NCBI RefSeq assembly: GCF_005519465.1
Contig: NZ_CP027859.1
Location: 1,302,001-1,366,000, forward strand
DNA from: Streptomyces clavuligerus
GTDB taxonomy: Bacteria; Actinomycetota; Actinomycetes; Streptomycetales; Streptomycetaceae
Length of the DNA stretch: 64,000 bases
Reading direction: 5' to 3'
Under the pieces are notes generated by a model. That model saw nothing but the letters and a program-made list of their open reading frames with translations. It did no database searches and had not been told where the DNA came from. Each line of letters opens with the position of its first letter. Position 1 is the first letter of the stretch. The position numbers and the translations under genes are program-made. This document shows positions 5,482 through 47,476 of the stretch, one piece after another.

Positions 5482-6471
5482 TCAGCCCGACGACCGGGCG
5501 ACGAGATTCTCCAGTCCGAGATCGCCGGGGTGATCGCGGGTGGTGTACCGCGAGGCGCCGCGACCCCAGTCGTGGTACCCGCGGCAGAACGCGGACAGCG
5601 CGTCGGCGTACCGGTCGAGCACGGCCCCCTCGACACCGAGGGCCCGGCCCAGCTCCGGCAGCCCGGACCGCAGTCGCAGGAAGGACTCGATCGAGCCCTG
5701 GACCAGGTCGCACACCCGGGTGACGGCCTCCGGCCCGGTGAGTCCGCCGTGGTGCACGAGGCTCAGGACGAGGTTGGCGTGGCCCTGCGCCCGGTCCTTC
5801 TCGAACGAGTGGAGCTCGTTCATGCCGATCACCGCATCGGACGTGGTGAACCGCATCCCGTCGAGCCGGCTGGAGTGCCAGGCCCGCCGCGGGACCTCGT
5901 ACCCCCCGACCCGTTCCGCCAGGGCGAAGAGCGGGCGGCAGCAGATCGTCCGGTGCCGCGCGCGCAGATGCGCGGCCGGGTCCAGGACGGCGCCGTGCGC
6001 GCGGTCGGCGAGCTTGGTGGGCCAGCCCGCCAGATAGTCCACCCACTCATGGACCGTCCGCCGCCGCCACGCGTCCGACATGCCCGCCCGCATCCGCTCC
6101 CAGCAGTCGCTGAACGCCACCACGATCGGCGGCGAGGCCGCCGTGGCCGCCGTCCCCTTCCACAACAGGTCCGTCAGCTCCGCGCAGACCGCCAAAGCGT
6201 CCCGCTCCCGCCCGTCCCCGGCGTCGAATTGATCGTCGAAGAGGAAGGTCCACCCGAGGACGTCGACGCAGAGATCCAGGTCCGCACCGGTCGCGTGCGG
6301 ATATCCATAGGCGCCGATGTCGGCCACACAGGAGAACTCGTAACGCCGCCTGGCCTCCTCGCCGCGCACCAGGTCCATGGCGTGGACCCAGTCGAGATGA
6401 CGGGCCCTCGCGCGGGCGAGATCCGGACTGACACGGCTCGGCGCGGGCACCGCGAATTCGAATTCCTGCAT
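5482..6471 (-). CDS. class I terpene synthase (sesquiterpene-cyclase type)
   Basis: A 329-residue protein of the size and motif pattern of single-domain bacterial terpene cyclases. The aspartate-rich motif DDQFD is at residues 79-83 (FLFDDQFD). The NSE triad appears as NELHSFEKD (218-226), where the last acidic position is Asp rather than Glu. The RY pair is at 308-309 (SRYTTRD). These residues bind three magnesium ions and the diphosphate of farnesyl or geranyl diphosphate and trigger cyclisation in the cytoplasm. The ATG at 6471 has GGGG six bases upstream; a TTG at 6483 is less likely. No P450 or prenyltransferase is adjacent. The product cannot be predicted from sequence alone. Confidence 0.9.
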   Translation of the reverse strand: MQEFEFAVPAPSRVSPDLARARARHLDWVHAMDLVRGEEARRRYEFSCVADIGAYGYPHATGADLDLCVDVLGWTFLFDDQFDAGDGRERDALAVCAELTDLLWKGTAATAASPPIVVAFSDCWERMRAGMSDAWRRRTVHEWVDYLAGWPTKLADRAHGAVLDPAAHLRARHRTICCRPLFALAERVGGYEVPRRAWHSSRLDGMRFTTSDAVIGMNELHSFEKDRAQGHANLVLSLVHHGGLTGPEAVTRVCDLVQGSIESFLRLRSGLPELGRALGVEGAVLDRYADALSAFCRGYHDWGRGASRYTTRDHPGDLGLENLVARSSG

Positions 6472-37214: not shown

Positions 37215-37652
37215 ATGTCCAGACTCACCCGCCGCCAGGTCATCGGAGTCGTCACCGGCGCCGCCGCGGGCTCGGCGCTCGCCGGTCTCGCCACCGCGAC
37301 CGCCGACAGCCCGCCCCCGGCGAAGGCCACCGCCGCGCCCGCCGGTACCACCGGACCCGACTCCTTCGACGAGGTCTTCCAGGGCCGCCGCATCCAGGGC
37401 CTGCCCGCCGAGGGCGGGGCCGCCCACGCCCGCGGCGCCCACGCCCGCGGCGCCCACGGCCACGCCGGGCACGGCCCCGCCTACCGCGTCCTCATCGACG
37501 GCCGCGAACTCCATGTCATGCGCCACGGAAAGATGGGCTGGAGCAGCGCGATCAACCACTACGAGAGGTTCGCGACCCCGCTCGACGCCGCGCGCACCGC
37601 GGTCGTCTCCCTCAAGGGCGCCGCCGTCGTCCCCTTCGACCCCACCGTCTGA
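37215..37652 (+). CDS. melC1: tyrosinase co-factor / copper chaperone MelC1
   Basis: A 145-residue protein with a Tat-like signal (SRLTRRQVIGVVTGAAAGSA; RRQVIG) and the MelC1 core: a His-rich segment with repeated HARGA units, then YRVLIDGRELHVMRHG and INHYERFATPLDAARTAVVS. In Streptomyces MelC1 binds apo-tyrosinase, delivers copper and carries it out through the Tat pathway. The repeated HARGAHARGAHGHAGHG tract supplies many extra histidines for copper. The ATG at 37215 is eleven bases after GGGAG. It is followed by melC2 after 16 bases. Confidence 0.95.
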   Translation: MSRLTRRQVIGVVTGAAAGSALAGLATATADSPPPAKATAAPAGTTGPDSFDEVFQGRRIQGLPAEGGAAHARGAHARGAHGHAGHGPAYRVLIDGRELHVMRHGKMGWSSAINHYERFATPLDAARTAVVSLKGAAVVPFDPTV

Positions 37653-37668
37653 GCCGGGAGCCACCGCC

Positions 37669-38490
37669 ATGACCGTACGCAAGAACCAGGCGAACCTCAC
37701 GGCCGCCGAGAAGAAGGCGTTCGTCAACGCCGTCCTGGAGCTGAAGCGCAGGGGCGTCTACGACGAGTTCGTCGCCGCCCACCGCCTCCGCTTCAACGTC
37801 GACATGAACACCGGGATATACGTGGGCCACTTCGGCCCCTCGTTCCTCCCCTGGCACCGCAAGTACCTCATCGACTTCGAGCGGGAACTGAAGAAGATCG
37901 ACGCGTCGGTGTCGATCCCGTACTGGGACTGGACCGCCGACAACACCGCCGCGTCCTCCCTCTGGGCCCCGGACTTCCTCGGCGGCACCGGACGCCCCCT
38001 GGACGACCAGGTCATGGACGGGCCCTTCGCCTACTCCGGCGGCAAGTGGACGATCACCGTCCAGGCCGACAGCCGGCCCTTCCTCGCCCGTAACCTCGGC
38101 TACCGGGTCCCCACCCTGCCCACCCGCGCCCAGGTCGACGCCGCCCTCGCCATGCCGACCTACGACTCCGCCCCCTTCCGGGACGGATCGGCGGGCTTCC
38201 GCTCCGAACTCGAAGGCTCCTCGGGGTATATGAGCATGCACAACCGGGTGCACACCTGGGTCTGGGGGCAGATGGAGTCCAGCGTCTCCCCGAACGACCC
38301 GGTGTTCTGGCTGCACCACGCGTTCGTCGACAAGCTCTGGGCCGAGTGGCACGCCCTCCACCCGGGCAGCGCCGAGTACCTCCCCGCCGCCGCCACCCCC
38401 GATGTGATCGACCTGAACGAGCCCATGCCTCCGTGGACCGCGACTCCGCAGAGCGTGCTGGACCACACCCAGTTCTACATCTACGTCTGA
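37669..38490 (+). CDS. melC2: tyrosinase MelC2
   Basis: A 273-residue type 3 copper enzyme that hydroxylates monophenols and oxidises diphenols to quinones, starting melanin synthesis. Copper A ligands H38 (AAHRLRF), H54 (VGHFGPSF) and H63 (PWHRKYL). Copper B ligands H191 and H195 (MHNRVHTW) and H217 (FWLHHAFVDKLW). Length and motif spacing equal those of characterised Streptomyces tyrosinases, offset by one residue for copper B. It has no signal peptide, so export relies on MelC1. The ATG at 37669 follows GGGAG by eight bases. A strong hairpin follows the stop. Confidence 0.98.
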   Translation: MTVRKNQANLTAAEKKAFVNAVLELKRRGVYDEFVAAHRLRFNVDMNTGIYVGHFGPSFLPWHRKYLIDFERELKKIDASVSIPYWDWTADNTAASSLWAPDFLGGTGRPLDDQVMDGPFAYSGGKWTITVQADSRPFLARNLGYRVPTLPTRAQVDAALAMPTYDSAPFRDGSAGFRSELEGSSGYMSMHNRVHTWVWGQMESSVSPNDPVFWLHHAFVDKLWAEWHALHPGSAEYLPAAATPDVIDLNEPMPPWTATPQSVLDHTQFYIYV

Positions 38491-38500
38491 CCGACCCCGG

Positions 38501-38535
38501 CCGGACGCCCCCACCCGCGGTACGGGGGCGTCCGG
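38501..38535 (+). terminator. terminator of the melC operon
   Basis: A perfect 12-base stem CCGGACGCCCCC / GGGGGCGTCCGG with an eleven-base loop starts ten bases after the melC2 stop. There is no T tract. Confidence 0.85.
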
Positions 38536-38589
38536 AACCCGGGCGGGCCGTGTCTCCCCACGCGGTCCGGACCTGCCGTTCCAGCGGTG

Positions 38590-38595
38590 TACGAT
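38590..38595 (+). promoter_or_regulatory. -10 element of the structured RNA, copy B
   Basis: TACGAT (TAnnnT type) stands exactly where copy A has TAGAGT, immediately before the first base shared by both copies. Confidence 0.5.
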
Positions 38596-38600
38596 GATCT

Positions 38601-38750
38601 TGTTGCTCGCGCCGGTGGAAGCCGGTCGGGACACAGGCGTTGGTGGTCCAAGGAAAGACACCCCACTTCCCGTGGGGGGATGCAGGTGCAAGGCCTGCCC
38701 AGCGCTCCGCTCACCGGGCCCCGGCCTCCCCCTCAGGGAGACCGGGGCCC
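38601..38750 (+). ncRNA. duplicated structured RNA element with terminator, copy B
   Basis: Bases 38596-38710 match copy A at all but two of 115 positions. The same pairing is available: CGTTGG (38638-38643) with CCAGCG (38699-38704) around two hairpins. A different terminator-like hairpin follows (38716-38750, 15-base stem with one mismatch, loop CCTCA). The hairpin sequences differ completely between copies while both stay strong, which argues for selection on termination. The MarR gene lies 182 bases downstream on the same strand, so a cis role is possible here; copy A has no such gene. Confidence 0.6.
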
Positions 38751-38902
38751 TCGTGTGTGCCCGGGACCCGCCGCTGAGGTGTTCAGCGGGACGCGCCCCG
38801 GGTGTTCACGGTGCTGACGGGCCCGTGGCGGCGTGTGCCGGAAACCGGACTCGATCGCCGTACGGCCGTCGAACGTGTGTCCTGGTGTCGGACCGGAAGC
38901 GT

Positions 38903-38922
38903 TTACTTTCCGAAGAAAGTAA
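38903..38922. promoter_or_regulatory. palindromic operator of the MarR gene
   Basis: The perfect inverted repeat TTACTTTC-CGAA-GAAAGTAA ends ten bases before the MarR start codon. An AT-rich 20-base palindrome in this position is the usual autoregulatory site of a MarR dimer, and it probably overlaps the -10 region. Confidence 0.75.
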
Positions 38923-38931
38923 TATGGGGCC

Positions 38932-39414
38932 ATGGCCGCCGAGCAGTCGAAGATCCAGCCGCTGAACGCGGGCGAAGAGGCGCTGGTCCGCTCGATCCAC
39001 CGCATCGTCCACGTCCTGCCCAAGGTCATGGACGCGACCATGCAGCGCGAGCAGCGGATCTCGTTGACCGAGTACCTGACGCTGTTCCGGCTCTCCGAGG
39101 CGCCGGAGCGGAAGATGCGGATGAGCGAGCTGGCCGAGGTCTCGTTCCTGTCGCTGAGCGGTATGACCCATGTGGTCACCCGGCTCCAGGCGGAGGACCT
39201 GGTGGAGCGGGCGCGTGACGCGGAGGACCGCCGCGGCTGGCACGCGGTGCTCACCGACCGGGGCATGGCCCGGCTGCACGAGGCGGGGCCAAGCAACCTG
39301 AGCGGGGTGCGCCGCTATCTCCTCGACCATCTCCAGGGCTTCGACCTGCACGCCCTCGCCCAGGCGTTCGACGCCGTCGGGGACTCTCCGGGGGAGCCCA
39401 CCGGCGGCCGTTGA
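38932..39414 (+). CDS. MarR-family transcriptional regulator
   Basis: A 160-residue regulator with the MarR winged helix: ISLTEYLTLFRLSEAPERKM, MSELAEVSFLSLSGMTHVVT, RLQAEDLVERARDAEDRRGW (wing). MarR dimers release DNA when they bind a phenolic or other ligand. No standard ribosome-binding site sits before the ATG at 38932 (GGGG lies only two bases away). The palindrome directly upstream suggests tight autorepression. An XRE regulator follows in the same direction after 52 bases, so the two may be co-transcribed. Confidence 0.92.
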   Translation: MAAEQSKIQPLNAGEEALVRSIHRIVHVLPKVMDATMQREQRISLTEYLTLFRLSEAPERKMRMSELAEVSFLSLSGMTHVVTRLQAEDLVERARDAEDRRGWHAVLTDRGMARLHEAGPSNLSGVRRYLLDHLQGFDLHALAQAFDAVGDSPGEPTGGR

Positions 39415-39466
39415 GGCAGCCCGCAGCCGCGGCGGTCCGCGGCCGGAATCAGGGAGTCGCGCTCGT

Positions 39467-40354
39467 ATGACGACACACACCAGCAACCTGGCCGCGTTCC
39501 TCCGCTCGCACCGGGAGCGGCTCAAGCCCGAACAGGTCGGACTGGCCTCCCACGGCCGACGGCGCACACCGGGCCTGCGCCGCGGGGAACTCGCCACGCT
39601 CGCCGGACTGAGCGTCGAGTATCTGGAACGTCTCGAACAGGGCCGGGACACCAACCCCTCCGGCGCGGTGCTCACCGCGCTCGCCGACGCGCTGCGCCTG
39701 TCCCAGGACGAGAAACAGCACCTCGCGCTGCTGGCCATGCGACAGCACAGCGCCACGCTCCTGCCCGTTCCGCGTCCGGTCGGCGACGATCCACGCCCCG
39801 GTGTGCGCGAACTCCTGGGCCGCCTCGACCCCACCCCGGCCTGTCTGCTCGGACCGGTCTACAACGTGGTGACCTGGAACGCGGCCTGGGAGACGGCCGC
39901 CCGCCCACTGGGCGTCCTGGATCTGGACCCGCCCGACCTCGTCCGCTACCACTTCCTGAACCCCAAGGCCCGCCGGACCTTCGACGACCAGTCATGGGCG
40001 GAGACCGCGGACGAGGTGGTCGGCTGGCTGCGGGCCGCCGAACCGGACTGGGGCGACGACGACGCCTTCCGGGCGCTGATGAGCGATGTGCACACGGTCC
40101 CCGAGTTCGCCTCCCGGTGGGCCGCCCACACGATCGCCTCCCGGCGGCCCGCCAGCAAACGCGTCTGGCACCCCGGGGCCGGGCATCTGAACATCCGTCT
40201 CGAAGTCCTCTTCGTCGGAGAGGCGAACCACTGGCTCCAGCTCTGGCTGCCGAGCGACGAGGACACCGCGACGGCCCTCGCCTCCCTCACCCGCACCCGG
40301 ACGGACCCCGTGCCCCACCCCCGCGAACCCCGTGAACCGGCGCGGGAGGCATAG
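39467..40354 (+). CDS. XRE-family regulator with MmyB-like ligand domain
   Basis: A 295-residue protein: N-terminal helix-turn-helix (residues 8-75; RRGELATLAGLSVEYLERLE, then QGRDTNPSGAVLTALADAL) and a C-terminal MmyB-like PAS-type domain (about 105-270; YNVVTWNAAWETAARPLG, then PDLVRYHFLNPKARRTFDD). MmyB-type regulators control short-chain dehydrogenases or antibiotic genes in response to a bound fatty-acid-like ligand. The ATG at 39467 starts a typical sequence. It stands between MarR and the homogentisate-dioxygenase-like gene, either of which it could control. Confidence 0.9.
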   Translation: MTTHTSNLAAFLRSHRERLKPEQVGLASHGRRRTPGLRRGELATLAGLSVEYLERLEQGRDTNPSGAVLTALADALRLSQDEKQHLALLAMRQHSATLLPVPRPVGDDPRPGVRELLGRLDPTPACLLGPVYNVVTWNAAWETAARPLGVLDLDPPDLVRYHFLNPKARRTFDDQSWAETADEVVGWLRAAEPDWGDDDAFRALMSDVHTVPEFASRWAAHTIASRRPASKRVWHPGAGHLNIRLEVLFVGEANHWLQLWLPSDEDTATALASLTRTRTDPVPHPREPREPAREA

Positions 40355-40482
40355 CCCGCGCGCCTCCCGGCCCGGCCGCAGCGTCTCCCTCCCCCTACGG
40401 GTACGGCCGCGGCGTTCCTGCGCGGCCCCCCGGCGCGCACTGTGGGACCAGGGGCGTACGACAGAGCGAAAGGAACGGTCCG

Positions 40483-41658
40483 ATGCAGCTCAGGCCGATG
40501 CGATCGTGGATTCACCACAGCCGGGGAAAGGTGCTGCGCCAGGCGGTGACCGGACGGAGGGAACTGGGTGGCCTGTACGAGGACATGCTCACCAGGCAGG
40601 GCTTCGAGGGACGCGACGCCTATCTGTACCGGCGCGCCGAGCCGACCGCCTGGAAGCACGCGGAGGAGGGCGCGGCCAACCGCACCTACGACGGGCAACT
40701 CGTGGAGCCCACCGACCGGACCCGCCCCGACGGCGGCCCGCTGCGCCTGTTCCACCACCCCGCGCTGGCCGTCTCCGTCAGCAGGCGCGGCGCGAACATG
40801 CCCTTCTCGGTCCGCAACGTCGACGGGGACGAGCTGTACTTCGTCCACGAGGGCACCGGCACCTTCTACACCGAGTTCGGTCCGATCCCGTACGAGCCCG
40901 GCGACTACATCCTGCTGCCGAAGGGCGTCACCTACCGGATTCGTCCGTCCGGACCGGTGAACTACTTCCTCGTCGTCGAGTCGGCCGAAGAGCTGGGCTT
41001 CGCCGACACCGGCGTCCTCGGCCGCCGGGCCCCTTTCGACCCCGGTCTGCTGTACATCCCCTCCCCGGAGCTGGACGAGCTGGGCGACGGCCGGGACGAG
41101 CGCGGCACCTGGCCGGTACGGCTCAAGATCCGCGACGGGTACGCCAGCCTCGTCTACGACGCCGACCCGATCGACGTCGAGGGCTGGTCGGGCGACCTCT
41201 TCCCGTTCAAGCTGAACATCCGCGACTACCGGCCGGTCATGAGCGACCGCATCCATGTCATGCCGTCCGCGTACGCGGTCTTCGCCACCTCGACCTTCAT
41301 GGTGGGCAACTTTCTGCCCCGCCCCTTCGAGACGGCCCCGGACGCGGCGGTCTTCCCGCCCTACCACCGCAATGTGGACTACGACGAGTTCACCTTTTTC
41401 CACGGCGGAACGGTGCTCGGCATGCCCATCGCCCCCGCCACCATGGCCCTCGTCCCGCAGGGGCTGCACCACGGCCTGCCCGCCGAGGTCCAGGCGCAGG
41501 TGACCGGGCGGCTGAAGCCGGGCGACCGCATCGACACCGAGGTCGTCTTCGTGGACACGACGGTGCCGCTGACCCCCACCCCGGAGGCCGAGGCCGCGCA
41601 GCGCCACGCCGAGCAGGAGTCCGGGGCCCCGACGGCACCGGTGGGGGACTGGATGTGA
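40483..41658 (+). CDS. homogentisate 1,2-dioxygenase-family protein
   Basis: A 391-residue cupin-fold dioxygenase. Family stretches are GDELYFVHEGTGTFYTEFGP, YEPGDYILLPKGVTYRI and the iron-site region PYHRNVDYDEFTFFHGG with a late histidine in PQGLHHGLP; together these supply the His-Glu-His iron triad. The enzyme opens the aromatic ring of homogentisate in tyrosine catabolism. Homologues in Streptomyces are a shorter, divergent branch, so a related aromatic substrate is possible. The ATG at 40483 has AAAGGA upstream. A tyrosinase operon lies 2 kb away, so both use tyrosine-derived aromatics, but they are not in one operon. Confidence 0.85.
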   Translation: MQLRPMRSWIHHSRGKVLRQAVTGRRELGGLYEDMLTRQGFEGRDAYLYRRAEPTAWKHAEEGAANRTYDGQLVEPTDRTRPDGGPLRLFHHPALAVSVSRRGANMPFSVRNVDGDELYFVHEGTGTFYTEFGPIPYEPGDYILLPKGVTYRIRPSGPVNYFLVVESAEELGFADTGVLGRRAPFDPGLLYIPSPELDELGDGRDERGTWPVRLKIRDGYASLVYDADPIDVEGWSGDLFPFKLNIRDYRPVMSDRIHVMPSAYAVFATSTFMVGNFLPRPFETAPDAAVFPPYHRNVDYDEFTFFHGGTVLGMPIAPATMALVPQGLHHGLPAEVQAQVTGRLKPGDRIDTEVVFVDTTVPLTPTPEAEAAQRHAEQESGAPTAPVGDWM

Positions 41659-42305: not shown

Positions 42306-43751
42306 ATGTCCCGACCGGACTTACCCGGTGGTTCACCCGCCACGGGCGCCGACGCCCAGCCCGCACTGAAACGGGTGATGGGCCCGGGTCTGCTGTTGCT
42401 GTTCATCGTCGGCGACATCCTCGGCACCGGGATCTACGCGCTGACCGGGCAGGTGGCCGGGGAGGTCGGGGGAGCGGCCTGGCTGCCGTTCGTCATCGCC
42501 TTCTCCGTCGCGCTGGTCACCGCCTGCTCCTATCTGGAGCTGGTCACCAAGTACCCGCAGGCCGCGGGCGCCGCCCTCTATGTGCACAAGGCGTTCCGCA
42601 CCCACTTCCTGACCTTCCTCGTGTGCTTCACCGTGATGTGTTCCGGCATCACCTCGGCGTCGGCGGCCTCCCGGGCCTTCGCGGCCAATATGGTCACCGG
42701 CTTCAAGACCGACGCGGGTGACGGTGTCGTCCTGCTGATCGCGCTGGGTTTCATGGGCCTGGTGCTGTTCGTCAATCTGCGGGGTGTCACCGAGAGCCTC
42801 AAGGTCAATGTCGTGCTGACGGCCGTGGAACTGGCGGGTCTGCTGCTGGTCGTCCTGATCAGCGCCTACTTCATCGCGGGCGGGAACGCGGACTTCTCCC
42901 GGGTCGTCGCCTTCGACACCGACTCCGACAAGAGCGCCTTCCTGGCGGTGAGTACGGCGACCTCGCTGGCCTTCTTCGCCATGGTCGGCTTCGAGGACTC
43001 CGTCAACATGGCGGAGGAGACCAGGGAACCCGCGCGGATCTTCCCCCGCATGATGTTCACCGGACTGGGCATCGCCGGGCTGATCTATGTGGTGGTGTCG
43101 ATCTGCGCCGTCGCTGTCGTCCCGGTGGGGCGACTCGCCGCCAGTGAGACCCCGCTGGCCACGGTCGTCCAGACGGCAGCCCCCGACTTCCCCATCTCCG
43201 ATCTGCTGCCGTTCATCTCCCTGTTCGCCGTGGCCAACTCCGCGCTGATCAACATGTTGATGGCCAGCCGGCTGCTGTACGGCATGAGCAGACAGGGCGT
43301 GCTTCCCCCCTTCCTCGCCAAGGTCCACCCCGTACGGCGCACCCCGCGGGCGGCGATCCTGTTCACCACGGCCGTCGCCGTCGGCCTCATCACCTTCGTC
43401 TCACTGAACCCGGACAGCTCGGTCGTCGCCCTGCTCGGCGGTACGACCACCCTGCTGCTGCTCACGGTCTTCGCGGGCGTCCATCTCTCGGTCCTCGTCC
43501 TGCGCCGGGACAAGGTCGCGGCCCCGCACTTCCGGGCGGGCCGTGCACTGCCCGTACTGGGCGCGCTGAGCTGCCTCTATCTGGTCCTGCCCTGGTCCTC
43601 CGGCCGCCCTGCCGAGCAGTACCGCATCGCGGGGGTGCTGCTGCTGATCGGCCTGGCCCTCTGGTCGGTCACCTGGCTCACCCGCCGCACCGCCCCTGGC
43701 TCGGCCCCCGCCGCCCCTGACACCGGCCGACCGGACGGGGCCCCGCGCTGA
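42306..43751 (+). CDS. APC-superfamily amino-acid permease
   Basis: A 481-residue transporter with twelve predicted membrane helices. The first helix carries the substrate-binding glycine motif (FIVGDILGTGIYALTGQVAG), and the sixth carries SLAFFAMVGFEDSVNMAEET with EEAxxP-like ending REPARIFPR. These are the signatures of the APA/CAT branch that imports amino acids by proton coupling. The ATG at 42306 has AGGAGG six bases upstream. Several possible substrates exist, and none is implied by neighbours. It is co-directional with the small L7/L12-like gene. Confidence 0.93.
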   Translation: MSRPDLPGGSPATGADAQPALKRVMGPGLLLLFIVGDILGTGIYALTGQVAGEVGGAAWLPFVIAFSVALVTACSYLELVTKYPQAAGAALYVHKAFRTHFLTFLVCFTVMCSGITSASAASRAFAANMVTGFKTDAGDGVVLLIALGFMGLVLFVNLRGVTESLKVNVVLTAVELAGLLLVVLISAYFIAGGNADFSRVVAFDTDSDKSAFLAVSTATSLAFFAMVGFEDSVNMAEETREPARIFPRMMFTGLGIAGLIYVVVSICAVAVVPVGRLAASETPLATVVQTAAPDFPISDLLPFISLFAVANSALINMLMASRLLYGMSRQGVLPPFLAKVHPVRRTPRAAILFTTAVAVGLITFVSLNPDSSVVALLGGTTTLLLLTVFAGVHLSVLVLRRDKVAAPHFRAGRALPVLGALSCLYLVLPWSSGRPAEQYRIAGVLLLIGLALWSVTWLTRRTAPGSAPAAPDTGRPDGAPR

Positions 43752-43849
43752 CGGGCCGGGATCGCCCAACGGCAGGAGCACGCCCGTTTCCGGACGCCCG
43801 CCCGATGTCATGGTTGAACTGACTCAGGGCCTTGCATGAGGGTGGCCGC

Positions 43850-44092
43850 ATGGATGACACCGGTGTCGATCGCTGCCCCGTCTGCTGGTCGCCGGTAGCG
43901 GACAGCGCGCAGTGGGTCCTGCTGTCCCGGCATCAGACCTCCGAAGGCGTGCTTGAGTACTGCCTGTCGGGTTGTGGATGCGTGGCCGTCCTGCTGGGCG
44001 GGGACCTGGTGAAGGCCGTTCCCCATGGATGCGCGCGGCTCATCGGCGTACGGCCGTGGGGTCCGGGGTCCCGGATCGCGTCGAGCCGATAG
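43850..44092 (+). CDS. small zinc-ribbon-like protein
   Basis: An 80-residue protein with a CPVC pair (RCPVCWSPVADSAQWVLLSR) and a second set of cysteines (EYCLSGCGCVAVLLGG) that can complete a zinc site. Similar short proteins with WLVLSRH(x)TSEG patterns are common in Streptomyces and have no assigned role. The ATG at 43850 follows GAGGG by seven bases. The C-terminal 20 residues are variable. Confidence 0.7.
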   Translation: MDDTGVDRCPVCWSPVADSAQWVLLSRHQTSEGVLEYCLSGCGCVAVLLGGDLVKAVPHGCARLIGVRPWGPGSRIASSR

Positions 44093-44154
44093 CCCGACGG
44101 CCGGGAGCCCGCTGCCCGCACCCCGCTCGGCGCCGAGTGCGCCCGGTCCGGTCC

Positions 44155-45210
44155 TCAGCGGAACCGGGCCGGCTTCTTCAGGCGGACCTCGTCCACGCCC
44201 AGCAGACCGAGCAGCGGCACCTTGGCGGTCCGCTGGTCCGGGTCGACCACCAGGCCGGATTCGCGGATCCGGGTCAGCAGGAGTTCGGCCAGGGGGAGGA
44301 CCATATGGCGGCCCCAGCACCGCTCCGACGCGTGGCCGAACGGGAGATAGCCCGGGGTCCTGTCGGGGTCGAGCCCGTCCCAGCGGTCGGGGCGGAAGGC
44401 TTCCGGGTCGTCCCACAGCGCCGGGTCCCGATGGGACAGCAGCGGGAGCAGGAGGACATCGTCCTTCGAGCCGATCCTGCCGTCGACGGCCGGGTACTCG
44501 GGGGAGGCGTTGCGCAGGAGGTTCCAGGAGGGCGGCAGCAGCCGCAGGGTCTCGTGGACGATGTTCCGGTTCGGCGTGTCGTCGGCGAAGGGGAAGCCGA
44601 GCCAGAGCGCGTTGGCCACCAGCGTGGACACGGTGAAACAGACCGGGGCGGCGGACCTGCGGTACATGCCCATGGCGTACCGGCGCTCCTGGTAGCCCAT
44701 GGCTCCGGCGGTCCGGTCGGCGAGGGCGGTGCGGCCGTCGCCCTGCCGGGGCAGGCGGGGCAGGGCCGCGCCGAGCGTGACCACGGACCAGGTGAGCACC
44801 GGGGTGAGTTCGAGTCTGCGGCTCATCAGCAGGCGCAGCCGGTAGGGGTCCCGGCCGAGAATGAGGTCGCGCAGGACGTAGTGCCCGGTCCAGGGCCAGG
44901 GCCCGGACAGGTCGACGTCCTTCGGCAGGGGGTGCCTGAGCGCCTCGCGGACATCGGCGCCGACGGTCCGCGTCACCGCCGACGCCTCGGCGCGCGGTAT
45001 CGAGCGCCCGAGCAGCGGCTTGAAGGTGGGCCGTTCGGTCTCCGTGGCACGGCGCGCGGCAAGCACACGGTCCATGACCTCGGGTCCCGCGACGCCGATG
45101 GTGTCGGGTTCCAGCCGGAAGACGTCCTGCCCCGTGTGGTCGTCCATGAGGGCGGCCAGCCGTGGGCTGAACACGGTGGTGCGGAGGCGCTGCGGCGATG
45201 ACGTGGGCAT
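44155..45210 (-). CDS. cytochrome P450, candidate atropopeptide cross-linking enzyme
   Basis: A 351-residue P450, shorter than the usual 400. The ExxR pair is E220-R223 (HETLRLLPP), followed by the FRPDRWDG meander. The heme-binding loop is PFGHASERCWG with the axial cysteine at 298. The I-helix region (CFTVSTLVANALW, 191-203) lacks the common acid-threonine pair. It lies 112 bases downstream of, and on the same strand as, a 27-residue precursor peptide ending in AWYIWW. In known tryptorubin-type pathways a single P450 makes the aryl-aryl and aryl-nitrogen cross-links of the hexapeptide core. The ATG at 45210 starts a normal N-terminus. Confidence 0.88.
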   Translation of the reverse strand: MPTSSPQRLRTTVFSPRLAALMDDHTGQDVFRLEPDTIGVAGPEVMDRVLAARRATETERPTFKPLLGRSIPRAEASAVTRTVGADVREALRHPLPKDVDLSGPWPWTGHYVLRDLILGRDPYRLRLLMSRRLELTPVLTWSVVTLGAALPRLPRQGDGRTALADRTAGAMGYQERRYAMGMYRRSAAPVCFTVSTLVANALWLGFPFADDTPNRNIVHETLRLLPPSWNLLRNASPEYPAVDGRIGSKDDVLLLPLLSHRDPALWDDPEAFRPDRWDGLDPDRTPGYLPFGHASERCWGRHMVLPLAELLLTRIRESGLVVDPDQRTAKVPLLGLLGVDEVRLKKPARFR

Positions 45211-45322
45211 GATTCTCCGGAAGGCGTCGGGGCGCCGCCGTCCAGCCGGACCGTGGAGCCGTGGGGGAGCGGTCCGGCCGGACGGCGGGGTCACATCGGT
45301 GATGCGGCCGAGAACGGGGACA

Positions 45323-45406
45323 TCACCACCAGATGTACCAGGCGTACCCCTTCAGGCTCTTTCCTTCCGAGACCTTGTGGCGTATGGCGAAGAGCAGCTT
45401 GGTCAC
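45323..45406 (-). CDS. atropopeptide (tryptorubin-like) RiPP precursor peptide, 27 aa
   Basis: The gene encodes a lysine-rich leader (begins MTKLLFAIRHK) and ends GYAWYIWW-stop. The last six residues AWYIWW differ only in the final residue from the tryptorubin A core AWYIWY. The GTG start at 45406 follows AGAGGAAG with good spacing; the TGA stop is at 45323-45325. The next gene on the strand is the P450. The core's aromatic residues are substrates for oxidative carbon-carbon and carbon-nitrogen bonds. The call rests on core sequence, size, basic leader and neighbour. Whether the leader is removed by a local or general protease is unknown; none is adjacent. Confidence 0.88.
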   Translation of the reverse strand: MTKLLFAIRHKVSEGKSLKGYAWYIWW

Positions 45407-45721
45407 GGCACTTCCTCTCAGCGTGGATCGGACGGCACGCGGCGGTCCCGGTCCGGGGCGGCGCCGGTGCGCACCGCGTGCCGATGGCGCAGTGAGGCTT
45501 CCCTGCCCCGGCCAATGGCTAATCCAAGGAAGCGCCTCTCCCTCGTGTGTGCGAGCGGTTCTGGACCGTGCGGAAGTGTGATTGGCCCGTTAAATGCGGC
45601 TGGTTTTGGGGGTTTGGCAGTGTTCAGCCGTGGTGTGCGCACCGGCAGGTTGGCCGGATATCGGTGCCGTGAACGCTCTTTCCCGGCGTGCCGTCCCCGA
45701 TGTGCACGGCGGAGGCGGGTG
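45407..45721. other. upstream region of the RiPP locus
   Basis: 315 bases between the precursor gene and the 3' end of the pentapeptide-repeat gene; all of it lies upstream of the precursor on the minus strand and should hold its promoter. An AT-richer patch (45580-45625) is the best candidate. No regulator gene or clear operator is visible. Confidence 0.4.
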
Positions 45722-46381
45722 TCAGTCGTCCCGTACGGTGAGGCCGATGTGCCGGGCGAGCACGGGCGCCAGGTCGAAGAGCTGCGTGGTGCTGACCGTG
45801 GCGCCCTTGAGCGCCTCCACCCCGGAGCCGATGCCCAGCGCGGTGGCCTCGCGCAGGTCCACCCGGGAGAGGACGGCCCGGTCGAGGCCGACGCGGTCCA
45901 GGGCCGTCCCCGGGAAGGTGACACCGGTCAGGGACGCACCGGCGAAGTCCACGTCCCGCAGCAGGCAGTCGACGAACGAGACCTCCCGCAGCACGGCCGC
46001 GCGCAGATTGACCGAGTCGAACTTGCACTGCTGGAAGACGACCCGCTGGAGCCGGGCCCCGTGGAGCTGGGTGCCCGCCAGCAGACTGGAGAGACACGCG
46101 GTGTCCAGCCAGCCGGTCTCCGCGAGATCGGTGCCGACGGTGCGGACGTTGTGCATCCAGACGGTGTCGAGACGGGCGCGCCGGAGCCGTCCGCCCGTGA
46201 ACGTCACGGAGGTGAGGGCCGACTCGCTGAAACGGGCCATCCCGGCGTCGATGTCGTCGAGGGCGAGGCCGTCGAGATGGGCCCACTCGTAGTCGCCGTC
46301 CCGTTCCGGTTCCCCCGTGAAGGGTTCCAGGCGGTGTGCGTAGGGGAGTTCGCTCAGGTCCTGCGGGGTGCGCGTGGGCAT
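45722..46381 (-). CDS. pentapeptide-repeat protein
   Basis: A 219-residue protein. A short leader domain (SELPYAHRLEPFTGEPERDG) precedes right-handed beta-helix repeats with the A(D/N)LxX spacing: GMARFSESALTSVTFTGGRL, RRARLDTVWMHN, LHGARLQRVVFQQCKFDSVN and LRDVDFAGASLTGVTF. Such proteins mimic DNA or act as scaffolds; some protect gyrase. The ATG at 46381 has AAGGA upstream. It shares its direction with the RiPP locus and ends 315 bases before the precursor gene, but no functional tie is evident. Confidence 0.88.
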   Translation of the reverse strand: MPTRTPQDLSELPYAHRLEPFTGEPERDGDYEWAHLDGLALDDIDAGMARFSESALTSVTFTGGRLRRARLDTVWMHNVRTVGTDLAETGWLDTACLSSLLAGTQLHGARLQRVVFQQCKFDSVNLRAAVLREVSFVDCLLRDVDFAGASLTGVTFPGTALDRVGLDRAVLSRVDLREATALGIGSGVEALKGATVSTTQLFDLAPVLARHIGLTVRDD

Positions 46382-46699
46382 GGTGTCCTTCCGGGGCGGT
46401 CGGGGAAGATCCGGCGGGGCCGAAGATAGCCCTCCGCGCTGACACCGGCCCGCTACCGCATCCACGCCACCGCGGCGACCGCCTGGCGCTGACCCGCCGG
46501 TGGTCCACCGCCGGGCGGCCGGGACGGCCGCAGGAGGCCGGCCTCCAGGAATTACCTCTCAAAATTGTCAAAAACAGGCACGTTGCGCTCCCAAACGAGC
46601 ATCTGTGTACGGGACATGGAACGTTTCGAACGCTATTCCCGTCCTGCTGGGCGAAGCGTGTGGTCGGCCGACCGCACGTCAGGTCCCACAGGGGGAAAC
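46382..46699. other. divergent promoter region for pentapeptide and protease genes
   Basis: 318 bases with an unusually AT-rich centre (46548-46640), including TTGTCA (46565-46570) and the short near-palindrome CGTTTCGAACG (46621-46631). No gene is seen. Confidence 0.45.
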
Positions 46700-47476
46700 A
46701 TGCCCACGTTCACCGAACGAGCCGCCGCCGTCCTCATGACCTCCGCGCTCGCCGTGACCGGCCTCGCCGCGACCGCCACCCCGGCCGCCGCCATCCACGG
46801 CGGGCAGAACACGACCGTCACGGACCACCCGTACGCGATGCTGCTGGTCACCCCCGACGGCCAGCAGGTCTGCGGCGGCACACTGGTGGAGCCCACCAAG
46901 GTGCTCACGGCCGCGCACTGCGTCGACGGCCTGGCCACGACCGATCTCCAGGTCATCGGCGGCCGTACGGAGGTGGCGGGCACCAAGGGAACCGTGCGGG
47001 CCATCCGCTCCATCGCCCTGCACCCCCGGTACAACGAGGGCGGCTTCCTGGCCAACGACGCCGCCGTGATCACGCTCACCGCGTCGATGCCGTACCGGAC
47101 GCTGCCCGTCGCGGGCCCGAAGGACACCGCCCTCTACGCCGTCGGCAGCACCGCGAAGGCCGTGGGCTGGGGCCGGATCGCCCGTGACACCCCGGCCACC
47201 CGGCTGAAGTCGGCGCAGCTCACCCTCTCGCCGATCGCCGCGTGCGACCCGTTCACCGACACCGGCGACTCGCTCGCCCGCAAGGTCTGCGGCACCCCGC
47301 CCGCGGGCACCCAGAACAGCATCTGCCGGGGCGACTCGGGCGGCCCGCTCATCGCGGGCGGCAAGGTGATCGGCGTGGTCACCACCGGCAACAAGTACTG
47401 CGACACCGAGCACCTGAAGTCGGTCTTCACCCGCACCAGCGCCGTCGCGGCCGACCTCGGGCTGCGCACCGGCTGA
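46700..47476 (+). CDS. secreted chymotrypsin-fold serine protease
   Basis: A 258-residue preprotease with a Sec signal (AAAVLMTSALAVTGLAATAT) and a short or absent propeptide before IHGGQ. Catalytic triad: H73 (LTAAHCVDG), D120 (ANDAAVITL), S213 (CRGDSGGPL). The residue six before the serine, which sets primary specificity, is S207 rather than Asp, so this is not a true trypsin; a chymotrypsin- or elastase-like preference is expected. Cysteine pairs are in the usual places. The ATG at 46700 directly follows GGGGGAAAC. A 12-base-stem terminator follows. Confidence 0.93.
   Translation: MPTFTERAAAVLMTSALAVTGLAATATPAAAIHGGQNTTVTDHPYAMLLVTPDGQQVCGGTLVEPTKVLTAAHCVDGLATTDLQVIGGRTEVAGTKGTVRAIRSIALHPRYNEGGFLANDAAVITLTASMPYRTLPVAGPKDTALYAVGSTAKAVGWGRIARDTPATRLKSAQLTLSPIAACDPFTDTGDSLARKVCGTPPAGTQNSICRGDSGGPLIAGGKVIGVVTTGNKYCDTEHLKSVFTRTSAVAADLGLRTG

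Follow-up and report, generated by a model that had tools for sequence, protein, structure and literature searches.

The question raised by this locus is which product would be specified by a short gene ending in the codons for AWYIWW together with the single cytochrome P450 gene downstream of it, and whether the final Trp of that core would bring a new cross-link with it. Both genes lie in a 64-kb stretch of Streptomyces clavuligerus DNA, positions 1302001-1366000 of contig NZ_CP027859.1; this stretch was analysed as a whole and is called the window here.

The precursor and P450 genes

The precursor gene is located at 45323-45406 on the minus strand, starts with GTG at 45406, ends in TGA and encodes the 27-aa product MTKLLFAIRHKVSEGKSLKGYAWYIWW, comprising the leader MTKLLFAIRHKVSEGKSLKGY and the C-terminal end KSLKGYAWYIWW with the core AWYIWW. 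The purine-rich GAGAGGAAG stands directly 5' of the GTG. The assignment rests on the open reading frame, on the NCBIfam model NF038372.1 (tryptorubin_fam, tryptorubin family RiPP precursor), which was passed with 47.9 bits against a cut-off of 33, and on the motifs KSLK (residues 16-19) and W-Y-x-W, both invariant in 9 of 9 aligned sequences that had been hand-picked for the alignment. The preliminary description had read here a 27-codon minus-strand gene ending in AWYIWW directly before its stop and followed by a single P450, and the open reading frames agree with it. Reading the letters without tools was thus enough for the 27-codon RiPP precursor to be spotted and correctly assigned to its family.

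The P450 gene occupies 44155-45210 on the minus strand and encodes an atropopeptide-type cytochrome P450 of 351 aa, identified by the Pfam family p450, by annotation (WP_003963544.1 in pSCL4 of strain F613-1), by the tree described below and by its motifs, ExxR and the haem ligand region PFGHxxERCWG being retained in 98% or more of the 85 rows of the alignment. The spacer from the precursor stop to the P450 ATG (45211-45322, minus strand) comprises 112 bases with GGAG before the ATG; in 78 relatives it ranges from 64 to 224 bases, counted up to where the P450 match begins. The P450 frame is open up to 45294, where a GTG start is found, and the RefSeq start is the ATG at 45210. The longer protein from the GTG is backed neither by the annotation nor by most of the 120 listed homologues, whose lengths are near 350 aa. 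The best 60 of 179 solved structures matched by sequence were general P450s, with CYP3A4 at the top, and matched the C-terminal third.

The same preliminary description held the precursor to be too short for most automated callers, a claim that stands only in part: a dedicated NCBIfam model exists and antiSMASH 8.0 brings a new atropopeptide rule, according to the available part of PMC12230676, whereas PLSDB, in a gene table for the F613-1 copy of pSCL4 that is described there as incomplete, has the P450 and lacks the precursor.

Relatives, core variants and the P450 tree

The set of relatives comprises the best 80 of 122 genome stretches encoding a P450 relative, with identities of 58-80%. 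A short open reading frame with an aromatic core was identified directly 5' of the P450 in all 80 fetched loci, so the precursor is conserved where the preliminary description had looked for it to be. A stricter precursor pattern caught 78 of them, the exceptions being L013 and L079, with the endings TWYLWY and AWALWY and the motifs QSLK and TSLK. The cores of the 78 loci were AWYIWY in 21, AWYLWY in 18, AWYFWY in 14, AWYHWY in 6, SWYIWY in 3, VWYLWY in 2, and AWYVWY and AWYAWY in one each. Cores with a last residue other than Tyr were found in the other 12 of the 78: AWYGWI in 8, AWYIWF in 2, AWYGWV in 1 and AWYIWW in 1, the sole carrier of AWYIWW being Amycolatopsis xylanica (L078). Among 31 related genomes, the own genome counted, a strong P450 match was present in five others (identities 78, 77, 72, 70 and 67), all five with a precursor beside it.

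The tree was built from 84 of the 85 family rows, one row below 290 aa as read, apparently L057, being left out. All rows had been selected by likeness to the window's P450, and its nesting among them is therefore partly by construction; the outgroup, two other P450s from the same genome, is very distant with long branches, making the root uninformative. The P450 of the window groups with the family P450s, as the preliminary description had supposed, and is sister to P0004 of Streptomyces jumonjinensis (100/90), 80.9% identical to it, inside a group of 21 rows (99/96). P0002, P0003 and P0005 surround it in the tree; measured along the branches, P0005 is closest (0.35), followed by P0004 (0.36), and the highest identity is that of P0002 (82%). 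The P450 of A. xylanica belongs to a separate group of 38 rows (100/99), on a long branch, and is 59.6% identical to the window's P450. Since the two fall in different groups, the core AWYIWW occurs in two separate P450 lineages.

PMC11450843, cited here and below for the part of its text that was available, defines atropopeptides by a class-defining P450, a KSLK leader motif and a Trp at core position two. The window's locus has a P450 grouped with 83 family rows, KSLK at residues 16-19 and Trp as the second residue of AWYIWW. With the precursor model, the kinship of the P450 and the same gene order in the relatives, the proposal of a minimal atropopeptide locus is upheld: judged by its sequence, the locus on the megaplasmid pSCL4 is an atropopeptide cluster of minimal size, with two genes and of the tryptorubin type of RiPP.

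Surroundings of the locus

The genes around the locus include those for an amino acid permease, a serine protease and a pentapeptide-repeat protein, and further a tyrosinase pair and a homogentisate dioxygenase. A larger cluster including the pentapeptide protein, the permease and the serine protease was considered and rejected, none of them recurring near related P450s. Of 13 annotated neighbours compared with the 80 loci, in flanks of up to 5 kb, a length that some loci did not reach, a single HTH regulator was matched, in 2 of the 80 and with about 33% identity. Groups of open reading frames 3' of the P450 recur in 18, 15 and fewer of the 80 loci.

Several other features were observed in the window. 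The pentapeptide-repeat protein (45722-46381) is weakly like the Qnr and MfpA families, far below their cut-offs. Near the atropopeptide genes, at 37215-41658, are those for a homogentisate 1,2-dioxygenase and for a tyrosinase and its cofactor protein; neither tyrosinase nor homogentisate 1,2-dioxygenase recurred near related P450s in the 80 loci with flanks of up to 5 kb. The segment 9727-32229 looks like a contractile injection system, with phage tail, tail sheath, baseplate assembly, VgrG-related, LysM, GPW/gp25 and ATP-binding genes grouped by annotation. The segment 56304-64000 is the start of an enediyne-type polyketide cluster, comprising DUF1702, VCBS-repeat and UnbU-like proteins together with a type I polyketide synthase that continues past the window end. 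Finally, an R-linalool synthase is annotated at 5482-6471, on the megaplasmid.

Proposed product and known atropopeptides

The two genes on pSCL4 form, in all likelihood, an atropopeptide cluster with amyxirubin B (clavorubin) as its product. We infer the product in S. clavuligerus, the cross-link positions, the docking of the leader and the action of a protease as follows. The ribosome would make the 27-aa precursor, whose leader would dock on the P450 with its KSLK motif; the P450 would then install cross-links among the Tyr and the first two Trp residues of AWYIWW, and a protease that the cell supplies from outside the cluster would remove the leader, and often the Ala too, giving amyxirubin B. 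The final Trp would be left as an uncross-linked tail in the place of tryptorubin's Tyr. With six H removed, WYIWW has a calculated m/z of 847.3562 and AWYIWW one of 918.3933.

A chance short reading frame next to an unrelated P450 would draw on the abundance of such frames here, 35 of at least 20 aa in 3.5 kb. An ending W[YF]xW[WYFLIV]-stop with a KSLK-type leader motif is nevertheless found once in the 64-kb window, whereas in 60 simulated windows (order-2 Markov) the aromatic ending occurred once and the ending with the leader motif in 0 of 60. Of 150 Streptomyces genomes, 17 had a match to NF038372.1 above its cut-off, the genome of the window being one of them, against 0 of 14 control genomes. 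With the arrangement in the relatives these results rule chance out, its probability being negligible. The WYIWW-stop pattern has a single occurrence in the own 8.54-Mb two-contig genome. Of 392 Streptomyces genomes 3 contain it, own genome counted; the leader motif is absent at the two other places, which appear fortuitous, so that by this pattern no further AWYIWW cluster was identified in the 392. A decayed or silent cluster giving no product is highly improbable. A simple scan for promoter-like and terminator-like sites (sigma-70-type, which says little for Streptomyces) found none at the locus, in keeping with silence; against decay, both reading frames are intact, ExxR and the haem ligand region are kept, and the 4001 bases of 43000-47000 match 15 plasmid records at 100%, every one of them from S. 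clavuligerus and pSCL4 of strain F613-1 among them.

Another reading accepts the atropopeptide cluster and gives it a pattern other than that of amyxirubin; the final Trp might be bonded, for instance, or a monocycle formed as in varsorubin B2a or scabrirubin. Such a pattern is very unlikely, and so slight are the chances of a different or extra bond involving the final Trp of AWYIWW, with a product other than amyxirubin B, that it can be called highly unlikely too. The core by itself does not determine the product, since one P450 can give several patterns per core, two non-overlapping ones being described for the varsorubins; in laurentirubin B the sixth residue is cross-linked, though by a second P450 and through the Tyr oxygen (PMC11450843), and the other P450 genes found elsewhere in the S. 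clavuligerus genome may act on the AWYIWW peptide. Nevertheless, the annotation of the 64-kb window shows no second P450, amyxirubin B was identified by 1H NMR and HR-ESI-MS as the product of the jum cluster from S. jumonjinensis DSM 747 (PMC11450843), to which the sister P450 apparently belongs, and A. xylanica makes the same compound with a P450 just 59.6% identical to the window's. Laurentirubin B excepted, the sixth residue of atropopeptides alone lies outside the bicycle and is relatively flexible (PMC11450843). Because of this position, the change from Tyr to Trp would alter the tail and leave the cross-links as they are. A new cross-link at the final Trp is thus probably not to be expected, and the new pattern that the preliminary description had derived from the variant core was not borne out, AWYIWW being found in A. 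xylanica as well and the jum relative giving amyxirubin B.

The producer of clavorubin we take to be S. clavuligerus, the organism of the window, and the study of Han et al. 2022 reportedly dealt with S. clavuligerus and ended with a modified bicyclic pentapeptide. The locus points to the gene pair on pSCL4 as the probable source of a known product, amyxirubin or clavorubin, in this species. The family and the core have been described before, and so, very probably, has the product. The amyxirubins are "also referred to as clavorubins" in PMC11450843, with Han et al. 2022 given as the source, and amyxirubin B was without antibacterial or antifungal activity in the panel used there. In a literature text search the string AWYIWW was absent from the match listed, PMC12352619, which has only WYIWY in its available text; for "amyxirubin" PMC11450843 was alone among the matches listed, and for "clavorubin" it alone among those listed concerned the peptide, by titles and the starts of abstracts.

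The closest known system is the jum cluster, which has, like the window, a precursor and one P450, and whose predicted core is that of amyxirubins A and B from A. xylanica (PMC11450843); that it reads AWYIWW follows from these words and the A. xylanica locus. The cloned jum fragment of 1252 bp has the length of 44155-45406. An origin of the window from S. jumonjinensis, which this coincidence suggested, was rejected on account of the 100% match to S. clavuligerus plasmid records and the mere 80.9% identity of the S. jumonjinensis P450. The P450s of jum and A. xylanica are printed as 59% identical (PMC11450843), and the 59.05% calculated between P0004 and the A. xylanica P450 supports P0004 as the jum enzyme. 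The jum cluster belongs to another species, and P0004 differs from the window's P450 at 19% of residues. The amyxirubin cluster of A. xylanica shares the AWYIWW core, the KSLK motif and a P450 directly downstream, its precursor comprising 23 aa (or 19, depending on the start codon) against 27 in the window. The pairing of AWYIWW with P450s of so low an identity makes a small natural test of how loose the link between P450 sequence and product may be, as PMC11450843 has already argued for jum. The clavorubins are, according to the same source, the same peptides as the amyxirubins. Biarylitides have a five-residue precursor (PMC13417212, in its available part), in contrast to the 27 residues found here, which places the window's locus outside that family. 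Tryptorubins A and B have the leader type, the W-Y-I-W core and the single P450 in common with the window's locus, their final core residue being Tyr where the window's core has Trp.
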